A stretch of 64,000 nt of DNA. It comes from Sphingobium sp. BYY-5 (lineage in GTDB: Bacteria; Pseudomonadota; Alphaproteobacteria; Sphingomonadales; Sphingomonadaceae). Location of the stretch: assembly GCF_022758885.1 (NCBI RefSeq), contig NZ_JALEBH010000001.1:372001-436000 (forward strand), in the 5' to 3' direction. The position numbers and the translations under genes are program-made. Below, piece after piece: positions 5,354 to 49,321 of this stretch. The notes beneath the pieces are model-generated. The model was not told the origin of the DNA and ran no database searches. It saw nothing but the letters and a program-made list of their open reading frames with translations. Position 1 is the first letter of the stretch, and the number at the start of each line of letters is the position of its first letter.

Positions 5354-6601
5354 ATGAATGGGGACGACCCTGATGCGGGATGGAGCCTGCCGGCCTGGAC
5401 CTATGCCGATGCTGAGTTTTTCGGGCTGGAGGTGGAGCGTATCTTTCGCCCTTCCTGGCAGATCGTGGCCCATGAAAGCGACATAGCCGCGCCCGGCGAT
5501 TTCCACACGCTCGACTATATCGGTGAAAGCGTGGTGGTCATCCGTGGCGATGACGGCGTGGTGCGCGGCTTCACCAATGTCTGCCGCCATCGTGGCGCGC
5601 GGATCGTGGATGGTCCTGGCGGCTGCGCGAAGAAGCTGGTCTGCCCCTATCATGGCTGGACCTATGAGAAGGACGGGCGCCTCTCCGGCGTGCCGATGAA
5701 GGCCAGCTATGGCGCGGCCTTCGCTCTGGCCGACCACGGGTTGGCTCCGGTCGAGGTGGAGACGTGGCACGGGTTTCTGTTCGTGCGGCTGGCCGATGAT
5801 GGCGGGCCGTCGGTGGCGCAGATGATGGCCCCCTATGGGGAGGAGATCGCGCCCTATCGCTTTGCCGATCTGCGAGCGCTGGGGCGGGTGACGCTGCGGC
5901 CCCGTGCCGTGAACTGGAAGAATATCGGCGATAATTATTCGGACGGGTTGCATATCGCGGTCGCGCATCCGGGGCTGAAAAGGCTGATGGGCGACGGCTA
6001 TGGCGTGGAGGCTTCGCTCCATGCCGACAAGATGTGGGGGCCGATCGTGGAGCGGCCCTCCGCCAACCTGTCCGAATGGGCCTATCAGCATTTCCTGCCC
6101 CCTGTGCCGCACCTGCCTGCCGATCGGCAGCGGCTGTGGACCTATTATAAGCTCTGGCCCAATGTCGCCTTCGACATCTATCCCGATCAGGTGGATTTCA
6201 TGCAGTGGCTGCCGGTGTCGCCGACGCAGACGCTGATCCGGGAAATTTCCTACGCCCTGCCGGATACACGGCGGGAGATGAAGGTGGCGCGCTACCTCAA
6301 CTGGCGGATCAACCGGCAGGTCAATGCCGAGGATACGGCGCTGGTCGCGCGGGTGCAGGCGGGGATGGCGTCGGCCAGCTTCACCGTGGGGCCACTCAGC
6401 GAACAGGAAGTGGCGCTGCGGCATTTTTGCGGACGGGTGCGCGCATTGATCCCGCAGGCGCGGTTGCATCATCCGCCGGGGGCTGGGTGGTCTTCCGGCA
6501 GTAATAACAATTTTCGTCATTCCCGCGAAGGCGGGAATCCATCTCCGGCCCTAACCCCCGATGCGAGGTTGGGAGATGGGTTCCCGCCTGCGCGGGAATG
6601 A
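5354..6601 (+). CDS. Rieske non-heme iron oxygenase, alpha subunit type, with repeat-derived C-terminus
   Basis: This 415-aa protein has an N-terminal Rieske [2Fe-2S] domain: C77-x-H79 and C97-x2-H100 within 'CRHRG' and 'CPYHGW'. The catalytic domain carries the mononuclear iron ligands in 'DNYSDGLHIAVAHPGL' (H200, H205). Such enzymes hydroxylate or demethylate aromatic or amine substrates using electrons from a reductase. No reductase or ferredoxin gene is adjacent. The last 30 or so residues ('FRHSREGGNPSP...FPPARE') are encoded by a palindromic repeat, and the stop codon lies in that repeat. The native end was therefore probably near residue 385. The next gene, a flavin amine-oxidase-like protein, follows closely and is probably co-transcribed. 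Confidence 0.88.
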   Translation: MNGDDPDAGWSLPAWTYADAEFFGLEVERIFRPSWQIVAHESDIAAPGDFHTLDYIGESVVVIRGDDGVVRGFTNVCRHRGARIVDGPGGCAKKLVCPYHGWTYEKDGRLSGVPMKASYGAAFALADHGLAPVEVETWHGFLFVRLADDGGPSVAQMMAPYGEEIAPYRFADLRALGRVTLRPRAVNWKNIGDNYSDGLHIAVAHPGLKRLMGDGYGVEASLHADKMWGPIVERPSANLSEWAYQHFLPPVPHLPADRQRLWTYYKLWPNVAFDIYPDQVDFMQWLPVSPTQTLIREISYALPDTRREMKVARYLNWRINRQVNAEDTALVARVQAGMASASFTVGPLSEQEVALRHFCGRVRALIPQARLHHPPGAGWSSGSNNNFRHSREGGNPSPALTPDARLGDGFPPARE

Positions 6602-6603
6602 CG
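6515..6603. repeat. REP-type palindromic element (CATTCCCGCGAAGGCGGGAA family) overlapping a coding end
   Basis: A left hairpin 'TCATTCCCGCGAAGGCGGGA' and a right hairpin 'TTCCCGCCTGCGCGGGAATG' flank a middle containing ATCTCC...GGAGAT. Related copies are at 46260-46346 and 49232-49321. The Rieske gene reads through it and stops in its right arm. A false upstream ATG for the following gene (6598) also lies in it. Confidence 0.9.
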
Positions 6604-35397: not shown

Positions 35398-36384
35398 ATG
35401 CATGGCTGGATCATCCTCGACAAACCCCATGGCCTTGGCTCCACCCAGGCGGTGAGCGCGGTCAAGCGCGCGCTGCGCACCAGTGGTGCAGGCAAGTGGA
35501 AGGTCGGCCATGGCGGCACGCTCGATCCGTTGGCGACCGGCGTGCTGCCGATCGCGATCGGGGAGGCGACCAAGCTCGCCGGACGGATGCTCGACAGCGA
35601 CAAGATCTACGACTTTACTGTCCGGTTCGGTGTTCAGACCGACACGCTCGACCTGGAAGGAAAGGGGATCGCGGAAAGCGACCATCGGCCCACGCTGGAG
35701 CAGGTGGAGGCGATCCTGCCGCGCTTTACCGGCCCGATCGAGCAGGCGCCACCGGCCTATTCCGCCATCCTGATAGACGGTCAGCGCGCCTACGACCTCG
35801 CCCGGAAGGGGGAGGAAGTGGAGATGAAGACGCGGTCGGTGACGATCCATGAGCTGGTCGTCACATCCTCCCCTGCAAGGGGAGGGGGACCGCCGCAGGC
35901 GGTGGAGGGGTGTCACCCTCTCGATAGCGGGACACCCCTCCGTCAGGGCTGCGCCCTGCCACCTCCCCTTTCAGGGGAGGAGATGGAGACTGTCACCCTC
36001 CGCGCCCATGTCTCCAAGGGCACTTATATCCGTTCCCTTGCCCGCGACATCGCGCTGATGCTCGGCACGGTCGGCCATGTCACCATGCTCCGCCGGCTGA
36101 AGGCGGGGCCGTTCACCCTGGAAACCGCGATTTCGCTGGACAAATTGGACGAAGCTGCTACGGGCGGCGGCATCGCGCAGCTTATGCTGCCGTTGACGGC
36201 GGGGCTGGACGACATCCCGGCTCTCGCAGTCTCTCCCGATGAAGCGCTGGCTCTCCGACAGGGGAAAGTGCTCATGGGGAAACCGCATACCGGCTTGTTA
36301 CTGGCGATGGAAGGTGAAACGCCTGTCGCGCTGGTGGAGGCCAGTGGCCCGGAAATCCGGGTGGTGCGCGGCTTTAATCTCTAA
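35398..36384 (+). CDS. truB: tRNA pseudouridine-55 synthase with in-frame repeat insertion
   Basis: This 328-aa protein has the catalytic block 'VGHGGTLDPLATGVLPIAIG' with nucleophile Asp43. 'SKGTYIRSLARDIALMLG' and the C-terminal PUA-like region are also present. TruB makes pseudouridine 55 in tRNAs. Between 'VTIHELVVT' and 'METVTLRAHVSKGTYI', normally joined by a short turn, about 38 extra residues (about 157-194) are encoded by a 114-bp palindromic repeat in frame. Without them the protein would be about 290 aa, near the family norm. The insert is rich in Gly, Pro and Ser and probably forms an exposed loop, so the enzyme may stay active. rpsO follows after 15 bp. Confidence 0.93.
   Translation: MHGWIILDKPHGLGSTQAVSAVKRALRTSGAGKWKVGHGGTLDPLATGVLPIAIGEATKLAGRMLDSDKIYDFTVRFGVQTDTLDLEGKGIAESDHRPTLEQVEAILPRFTGPIEQAPPAYSAILIDGQRAYDLARKGEEVEMKTRSVTIHELVVTSSPARGGGPPQAVEGCHPLDSGTPLRQGCALPPPLSGEEMETVTLRAHVSKGTYIRSLARDIALMLGTVGHVTMLRRLKAGPFTLETAISLDKLDEAATGGGIAQLMLPLTAGLDDIPALAVSPDEALALRQGKVLMGKPHTGLLLAMEGETPVALVEASGPEIRVVRGFNL
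35867..35980. repeat. multi-hairpin palindromic repeat inside truB
   Basis: The 114-bp element starts CCTCCCCTGCAAGGGGAGG and ends CCTCCCCTTTCAGGGGAGG. Between them are three more stem-loops: ACCGCC/GGCGGT, GGTGTC/GACACC and GGGC/GCCC. It is exactly 38 codons long, so the reading frame of truB is preserved. A sister copy lies at 39370-39484. Confidence 0.92.
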
Positions 36385-36399: not shown

Positions 36400-36669
36400 A
36401 TGTCGATTACTGCTGAGCGCAAGGAAGCGCTGATCAAGGAACATGCCCGCGTCGAAGGCGACACCGGTTCGCCGGAAGTCCAGGTTGCGATCCTCTCGGA
36501 ACGCATCTCGAACCTGACCGAGCATTTCAAGGGTCATCACAAGGATAACCACAGCCGTCGCGGCCTGCTGATGCTGGTCAACAAGCGCCGTTCGCTGCTG
36601 GACTATCTGAAGAAAAAGGATGGGGCGCGTTACACCGACCTCATCGCCAAGCTGGGCCTTCGTAAATAA
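36400..36669 (+). CDS. rpsO: 30S ribosomal protein S15
   Basis: This 89-aa protein of family length starts [20 protein letters not shown]. It has the conserved '[20 protein letters not shown]' and '[20 protein letters not shown]' segments that contact 16S rRNA. AAGGAAG precedes the ATG. A GC-rich hairpin follows the stop. The truB-rpsO-pnp order is conserved in bacteria. Confidence 0.98.
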
Positions 36670-39301: not shown

Positions 39302-39369
39302 GTTTGGCGATTATGGCGTTTGCAAACCCGCTCGTCGAATGTTGATATAGGAGCAAGGTGCGAGAAATT

Positions 39370-39484
39370 CCTCCCCTGTAAGGGGAGGGGGACCGGCGAA
39401 GCCGGTGGAGGGTGTCCCGCTATCGATAAGGTGACACCCCTCCGTCAGGCGCTTCGCGCCCGCCACCTCCCCTGCCAGGGGAGG
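39370..39484. repeat. multi-hairpin palindromic repeat upstream of bamD
   Basis: This 115-bp copy of the element found inside truB begins CCTCCCCTGTAAGGGGAGG and ends CCTCCCCTGCCAGGGGAGG. The inner stems differ by paired changes (ACCGGC/GCCGGT here). The centre GGTGTCCCGCTATCGATA is the reverse complement of the centre of the truB copy. The remaining sequence to bamD (39485-39661) shows no gene or clear signal. Confidence 0.9.
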
Positions 39485-39661
39485 ATGAAAATTTGCCCCG
39501 GATCATCCTCGGATGCGCGCCCTGAGTTTGCAAACGTCATAATCGCTTTTCATTTCGATGGAGCGACCGACCGATTTCGATCATCGGATTGGGGTGGCCT
39601 GTTGAACGGTCCGCAATTCTGCTGCTTGGCGACGGCGATCCGCTCGGCTATGACCCGGCCC

Positions 39662-46259: not shown

Positions 46260-46346
46260 CGTCATCCCCGCGAAGGCGGGGATCCATCTCCTGGCTTTGC
46301 GCCAGTCGATGCCGTGGGAGATGGGTTTCCGCCTTCGTGGAAACGA
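46260..46346. repeat. REP-type palindromic element (CCCCGCGAAGGCGGGG family) within the cys operon
   Basis: A left hairpin 'TCATCCCCGCGAAGGCGGGG', a middle with ATCTCC...GGAGAT and a degenerate right arm 'GTTTCCGCCTTCGTGGAAAC'. It separates cysI from the DUF934 gene inside what is otherwise a compact operon, so it may process or stabilise the message. Confidence 0.88.
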
Positions 46347-46372
46347 CAAAGATTTTTTTGCGAGACGACAAC

Positions 46373-49231: not shown

Positions 49232-49321
49232 CGTCATCCCCGCGGAGGCAGGGATCCATCTCTCCAGCCTGGCGCTGGATGCATGGTCAGGAGATGGGTT
49301 CCCGCCTTCGCGGGAATGACG
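49232..49321. repeat. REP-type palindromic element (CCCCGCGGAGGCAGGG/CCCGCCTTCGCGGG family)
   Basis: A left arm 'TCATCCCCGCGGAGGCAGGG' and a right arm 'TTCCCGCCTTCGCGGGAATG', with ATCTCTCC...GGAGAT in the middle. It occupies part of the roughly 330-bp gap upstream of cobA. The rest of that gap (49115-49231) would hold the operon promoter, but no convincing boxes were identified; a run of eight G's lies at 49192-49199. Confidence 0.88.

Follow-up and report, generated by a model that had tools for sequence, protein, structure and literature searches.

How did a palindromic repeat come to lie in frame within the coding sequence of truB in Sphingobium sp. BYY-5, and is it the repeat that recurs among its relatives or the site that the repeat occupies? 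We examined this in the window (the whole stretch of 64,000 nucleotides that was analysed), in its source genome (G000, two contigs), and in genomes of the same genus, family and class. Two features raise the question:

35398..36384, + strand: truB, tRNA pseudouridine(55) synthase of 328 aa, an open reading frame with its frame unbroken
35867..35980, + strand: palindromic repeat of type A, 114 bp, about residues 157-194, in frame in truB

The product of the gene passes as a TruB, with 221.9 bits against TIGR00431 (curated cut-off 151.45), and the Pfam domains TruB_N and TruB_C_2 flank the insert on its two sides. The motif G40-T41-L42-D43 is identical in 30 of 30 aligned TruB sequences, and we take D43 to have the catalytic role. 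Among named relatives in the searched collection, Sphingobium ummariense RL-3 has the closest TruB, at 87%. An earlier, sequence-only reading of this DNA had called the host an essential RNA-modification enzyme; this is doubtful, since truB mutants of E. coli are viable.

The same reading had described an insert of exactly 38 codons that keeps the frame, and the 114-bp element at 35867-35980 does lie within the open reading frame in this way, beginning at codon position 2. Its ends as delimited are CCTCCCC and GGGGAGG, with perfect 8-nt arms at each end, and the terminal inverted repeats have 42-nt arms of 76% complementarity that run about 10 nt past the element on each side. The five stem-loops proposed earlier are found when the element is read locally, but the minimum-energy RNA fold opens the two terminal ones and forms one long closing stem enclosing three hairpins (-86.2 kcal/mol, z -6.46, with 0 of 200 shuffles equally good). 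By sequence comparison the insert is bracketed by residues 160 and 167 of PDB chain 1r3f_A, and alignment with known TruB predicts that the insertion point is a beta-hairpin turn. Between 35300 and 39700 no Rfam family reached its gathering score.

An assembly error at this site is unlikely, because the record of S. ummariense RL-3 has an insert of identical type, in the same frame and place. Repeats can misassemble, and of the 94 genus genomes in which truB was read, one has the gene in two frames (G040) and two have it split by contigs (G023 and G068). Nevertheless, like inserts occur in independent named records, and the other 91 genomes are open in one frame through the loop, so that we practically dismiss an artefact of assembly or annotation. 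The truB of G040 has an A2 element in the loop (L090); since its assembly has 200 contigs, a real break there is indistinguishable from an assembly error.

As to the repeat itself, a sister copy had been reported in intergenic DNA at 39370, and we recovered it after pnp:

39370..39484, + strand: second type A copy, downstream of pnp, 85% identical to the truB copy, with inverted arms at 39369-39485

At least 40 distinct type A copies occur in the source genome (40 of 72 first-look candidates were scored; there are 77 matches counting both orientations), and the listed matches, self-match aside and both orientations counted, are 71-92% identical. The frame equivalent to that of truB is open in 21 of the 34 full-length copies (the truB copy included), and 12 of the 34 also have a length divisible by three. 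Type A matches were found in 68 of the 94 genus genomes and in 13 plasmid records; in 12 of these no annotated feature lies at the best place, and the remaining record is unannotated. We also observed that the second copy in the window is nested in a larger inverted repeat (39307-39327 and 39526-39546), and that a piece of its left flank is found again beside four other type A copies (L010, L011, L019 and L027).

We then compared the loop across the genus, reading it as the stretch between the anchors ..VTI and ..VSKGTYIRSL. Loops were assigned by BLAST (E 0.01 or better) to ten reference repeats with labels given by hand, nine taken from the genus truB loops themselves and the tenth being the window element; stretches of at most 66 nt without a type were called short, and weak matches in G006, G008 and G069 were left untyped. 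Relatives do not uniformly carry a similar non-repeat loop: the stretch ranges from 48 to 192 nt, and of the 91 loops 46 are typed repeats, 30 are short and 15 are unassigned, the type A element being missing from the short-loop relatives. The typed loops comprise A (3), A2 (5), B (16), D (6), D2 (2, in G062 and G065), D3 (1), E (3), F (3), G (6) and H (1). Since A and A2 share parts, as do D, D2 and D3, the ten types make about seven groups. Moreover, the A-like repeat occurs at this loop in two reading frames, giving SSPARGGG.. and LPGTGRG.., and these must therefore be separate entries. One further loop, of 52 residues (L059, in G081), matches none of the ten types and does not fold strongly.

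Because the references come from the loops that they score, the repeat nature of the types was checked separately. In genome searches A, B, D, F and G are multi-copy: type B matches occur in 76 of the 94 genus genomes, and F, D and G, for which 4, 7 and 6 genomes were searched, respectively, were present there in multiple copies, those of G being mostly partial. Types E and D2 also have copies elsewhere than in truB, among fetched loci that include the window, D3 is present in CoaBC linkers, and H has one locus outside truB. Type A2 matches the truB of G040 and otherwise only, in part, type A copies. In folding, 35 of 44 typed loops tested had z below -3, as against 0 of 18 untyped loops.

We extended the comparison to 177 TruB sequences, 91 from the genus and 86 from the family, each of the latter from its own genus (of 88 family genomes drawn, G156 gave no match and G107 was interrupted by contig boundaries). 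Insertions of at least 10 residues lie at this loop in 87 of the 177 and at other internal positions in 0 of the 177. Elsewhere in the protein there are insertions of 6 to 9 residues in 3 rows and short C-terminal additions in 40. Part of the 87 loop insertions is the native, non-repeat loop of one clade (..GRPDPYDP..). Among the 79 of 86 family loops that were parsed, 45 are of 90 nt or more and 15 match one of the ten reference repeats, and z was below -3 in 18 of the 52 that were folded. Two of the seven unparsed members (G111 and G094) have repeat-like peptides by eye. A 100-residue stretch in G157 (L351) matches D2 and F and looks like several stacked elements, and an 89-residue stretch in G099 (L337) has a B-type match beside the native loop of its clade. 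In the class sample, a TruB match was found in 376 of 387 genomes. Judged by spans rather than sequences, and for the stronger, listed rows only, the 144 TruB from other families cover 750-933 nt (13 over 903, none over 940), and none spans enough for such a repeat; six rows of the family in the same listing span 954-1023 nt. From these sequence comparisons, the recurrent unit appears to be the site, that is, the TruB loop, and not one repeat family.

We favour the reading, at a probability of roughly 0.7, that the truB insert is a dispersed sphingomonad repeat that entered in frame at a tolerated loop serving recurrently as a landing pad. At the level of sequence it builds on the insert, its repeat nature, the single site in TruB, the several families, the two frames of A-like elements and the differing loops of close relatives, in which trimming and swapping are visible. 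Palindromic repeats of sphingomonads would land in many places of the genome, and landings within genes would mostly be removed by selection. A landing at the TruB turn that keeps the frame would leave a working enzyme and hence stay, and the insert would be translated as an extra loop present in mature TruB. Unrelated palindromic families would have entered this turn separately, and the resulting loop alleles would later drift, be trimmed, swapped or lost. The loop would thus be tolerated rather than useful, with surviving copies accumulating at positions that the protein can accommodate. That so many families share one loop is not accounted for by neutral tolerance alone, and this leaves room for targeting or for a useful mRNA hairpin.

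The distribution of copies over genes bears on targeting. For 65 copies in the source genome (A 40, F 16, D 6 and G 3, with five more D matches outside this set) we tested whether the DNA on both sides is coding. By a strict test, which flags 28 of 42 known truB inserts, 1 of the 65 passes, namely that of truB. By a looser cut-off, which keeps 42 of 42, five pass: truB, half a D element in coaBC with Pfam domains on both sides, L127, L131 and L281. The last three lack support as genic copies (L127 has no Pfam match, L131 lacks a spanning open reading frame of more than 60 aa, and that of L281 has 69 aa), and truB is the sole full copy found in a conserved gene among the 65 tested. The proposal that this repeat family can spread into genes is weak for type A, since among its 40 copies tested only that of truB was found in a conserved gene. 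Neither cut-off is passed by any of 20 type B copies that were chosen among the listed matches from places other than truB. Other candidates also fell away as genic hosts: no Pfam family matched the spanning open reading frames of L127, L132, L002 and L275 at E 0.001, the sole Pfam match at L133 (FlgI) begins 37 residues past the element, and a type A copy in an open frame of 707 aa in G030 sits between two gene-like open reading frames. Four further copies (L006 of type A; L370, L372 and L374 of type B) have coding-like flanks in one frame and a stop within the element, and may be broken genes.

These counts would fit a moving machinery that prefers the truB DNA site for its sequence, its local fold or an older palindrome. 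About seven repeat groups at one site, truB as the sole full genic copy in 65, and the apparently stacked elements of L351 or the B element beside the native loop in L337 all point that way, but the types differ in their ends and no common target was seen by eye. The source genome has no RAYT transposase (Y1_Tnp, PF01797; 0 matches, in a search of this transposase family only, for which the control was positive in 5 of 14 genomes, including E. coli and Caulobacter), which speaks against RAYT-driven spread there. Moreover, tolerance yields the identical pattern, and we regard targeted landing as unlikely.

The half element in coaBC belongs to a second, narrower site, the interdomain linker of CoaBC. 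A search of 88 genomes gave 30 loci, of which 29 linkers were read and one was unparsed; 12 of the 29 hold D or D3 elements in frame, with full D in 2, half D in 3 (the source genome among them) and D3 halves in 7:

CoaBC linkers with an in-frame full or half D or D3 element: L382, L391, L393, L400 and L402; L386, L389, L392, L397, L398, L399 and L404

Between the two genes surveyed, truB and coaBC, truB is the richest site.

Close relatives differ at the truB loop in ways that suggest turnover. G093 and G092 have truB flanks that are 98.1% identical, with a loop of 180 nt holding an A2 repeat in the former and a short one of 63 nt in the latter. In this nearest filled and short pair, the filled loop has replaced about 34 nt of the short one, and no clean target duplication was seen by eye. 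With flanks 95.3% identical, G057 has a full B element and G085 a trimmed one; with flanks 94.5% identical, G063 has A2 and G057 has B. On the TruB tree, a weak one with 39 of its 88 inner branches below 80, the fewest loop changes are 38 over 76 rows, with 15 'other' rows left out.

Such differences might also arise if few insertions were original and recombination in the conserved flanks had carried truB alleles from one species to another. Common junctions, such as that shared by G087 and G004 past the element or the GEEL after A2 elements, and similar B inserts in diverse genomes speak for allele exchange. Resemblance to the query is 84-92% for the B copies in truB; outside this gene, near-full-length B copies attain 81% and partial ones 91% over about 70 nt. 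As judged from these identities, old B inserts in truB may have been kept or exchanged. About seven groups and two A-like frames would still require several separate entries, however, and exchange would supplement a landing pad rather than replace it. As the main spreader, we consider allele exchange possible but doubtful.

A tolerated loop should leave its mark on codon positions. Change in type A loops (3 genomes) is even over positions 1, 2 and 3 (0.19/0.22/0.19), as expected for a free loop, compared with 0.09/0.05/0.24 in the body of the same proteins; these stretches, like those below, include a few residues beyond the repeat. The A2 and G loops (2 genomes each) are also without a third-position excess. 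Type B loops (7 genomes) show a mild excess (0.15/0.13/0.22), and type D loops (5 genomes) one much like that of their own body (0.19/0.14/0.33). Some protein-level constraint may therefore act on the B and D loops, and because of this excess near-neutral tolerance of the inserts is likely rather than proven.

The strong folds raised another possibility, which involves the genes after truB. We take these from their sequence to be rpsO and pnp:

36400..36669, + strand: presumably rpsO, next after truB, an open reading frame of 89 aa
36760..36837, + strand: D2-type palindrome in the rpsO-pnp spacer, matching the D2 reference with 77 bits
36920..39229, + strand: presumably pnp, the third gene, an open reading frame of 769 aa

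In this account a hairpin in truB would control the truB-rpsO-pnp transcript, for instance as an RNase III or PNPase-linked site, and landed palindromes would be kept for it. It would agree with the z below -3 of most typed inserts and with the D2 palindromes in rpsO-pnp spacers, where D2 matched in 6 of 39 and E weakly in 1 of 39 (the window, which has a D2 match, and 38 of 80 named loci). A recent insertion suffices to explain the folding, however; the short loops make up 30 of 91 in the genus, none of the 18 untyped loops tested had z below -2 and they fold no better than shuffles, and D and D3 elements also sit in CoaBC linkers. We accordingly give a selected mRNA hairpin little credence. 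The broader proposal that the TruB hairpin is a true landing pad, with diverse palindromic families either steered there or kept for a useful truB-rpsO-pnp hairpin, seems to us improbable; if true, a protein loop would double as an exchangeable RNA control cassette.

Finally, we set the truB insert against known systems. The sequence-only reading had likened it to Rickettsia palindromic elements (RPE), and the likeness holds, in that a palindromic repeat with copies across the genome sits in a conserved gene, keeps its frame and supplies an additional loop. Its length of 114 bp, z of -6.46 and preserved frame agree with RPE as the relevant parts of PMC3733652, PMC2229807 and PMC10969869 describe them: palindromes of about 100-150 bp, both intergenic and in frame in conserved genes. 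In contrast, within one genome RPE enter numerous unrelated genes (for R. conorii, the part of PMC10969869 concerned gives 44 cases), and here one full genic copy, besides the half copy in coaBC, was found among 65 tested with a strict test that finds 28 of 42 true inserts. On the Sphingobium side it is one protein loop that holds many families across genomes, a difference drawn with RPE known by description only. The claim that no equivalent had been described did not survive, as PMC3733652, in its part on genic repeats, already names truB of S. maltophilia, E. litoralis and S. alaskensis as carrying repeats and mentions an RPE-1 in the R. conorii gene, making four species in all. That part gives one shared genic site (recB, in two Xanthomonas), the sites being otherwise different, and describes no multi-family site in truB; nor was such a site found in the open-licence literature searched. 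As far as this search goes, what is new is that the loop is shared, how many families it holds and that they turn over.

Bacterial MITEs (ERIC, NEMIS and RU, as treated in part of PMC2229807) are likewise small; they are bounded by terminal inverted repeats, and their open frames become fused to genes. Type A has such inverted repeats. No clean target duplication was seen by eye in the G093 and G092 pair, and the search for PF01797 pointed to no parent transposon. So far, selfish palindromes entering proteins in frame have been scattered cases. Here, within a single genus, one loop of a housekeeping enzyme has ten types of repeat that fall into about seven groups, and further genera of the family also have repeats in it. 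The loop can serve as a set of natural replicates of insertion, trimming and swapping at a single codon position, and makes it testable whether inserts are neutral passengers or put to use, and what decides the survival of repeats inside genes.

The GTAG/CGTC REPs of PMC3733652 are, in the part on genic repeats, also palindromes within genes, truB included. Type A differs from them in having neither a GTAG nor a CGTC tag, and types E and F, as delimited here, start with CGTC. Three E-type copies lie in the window, at 6515-6603, 46260-46347 and 49232-49321.
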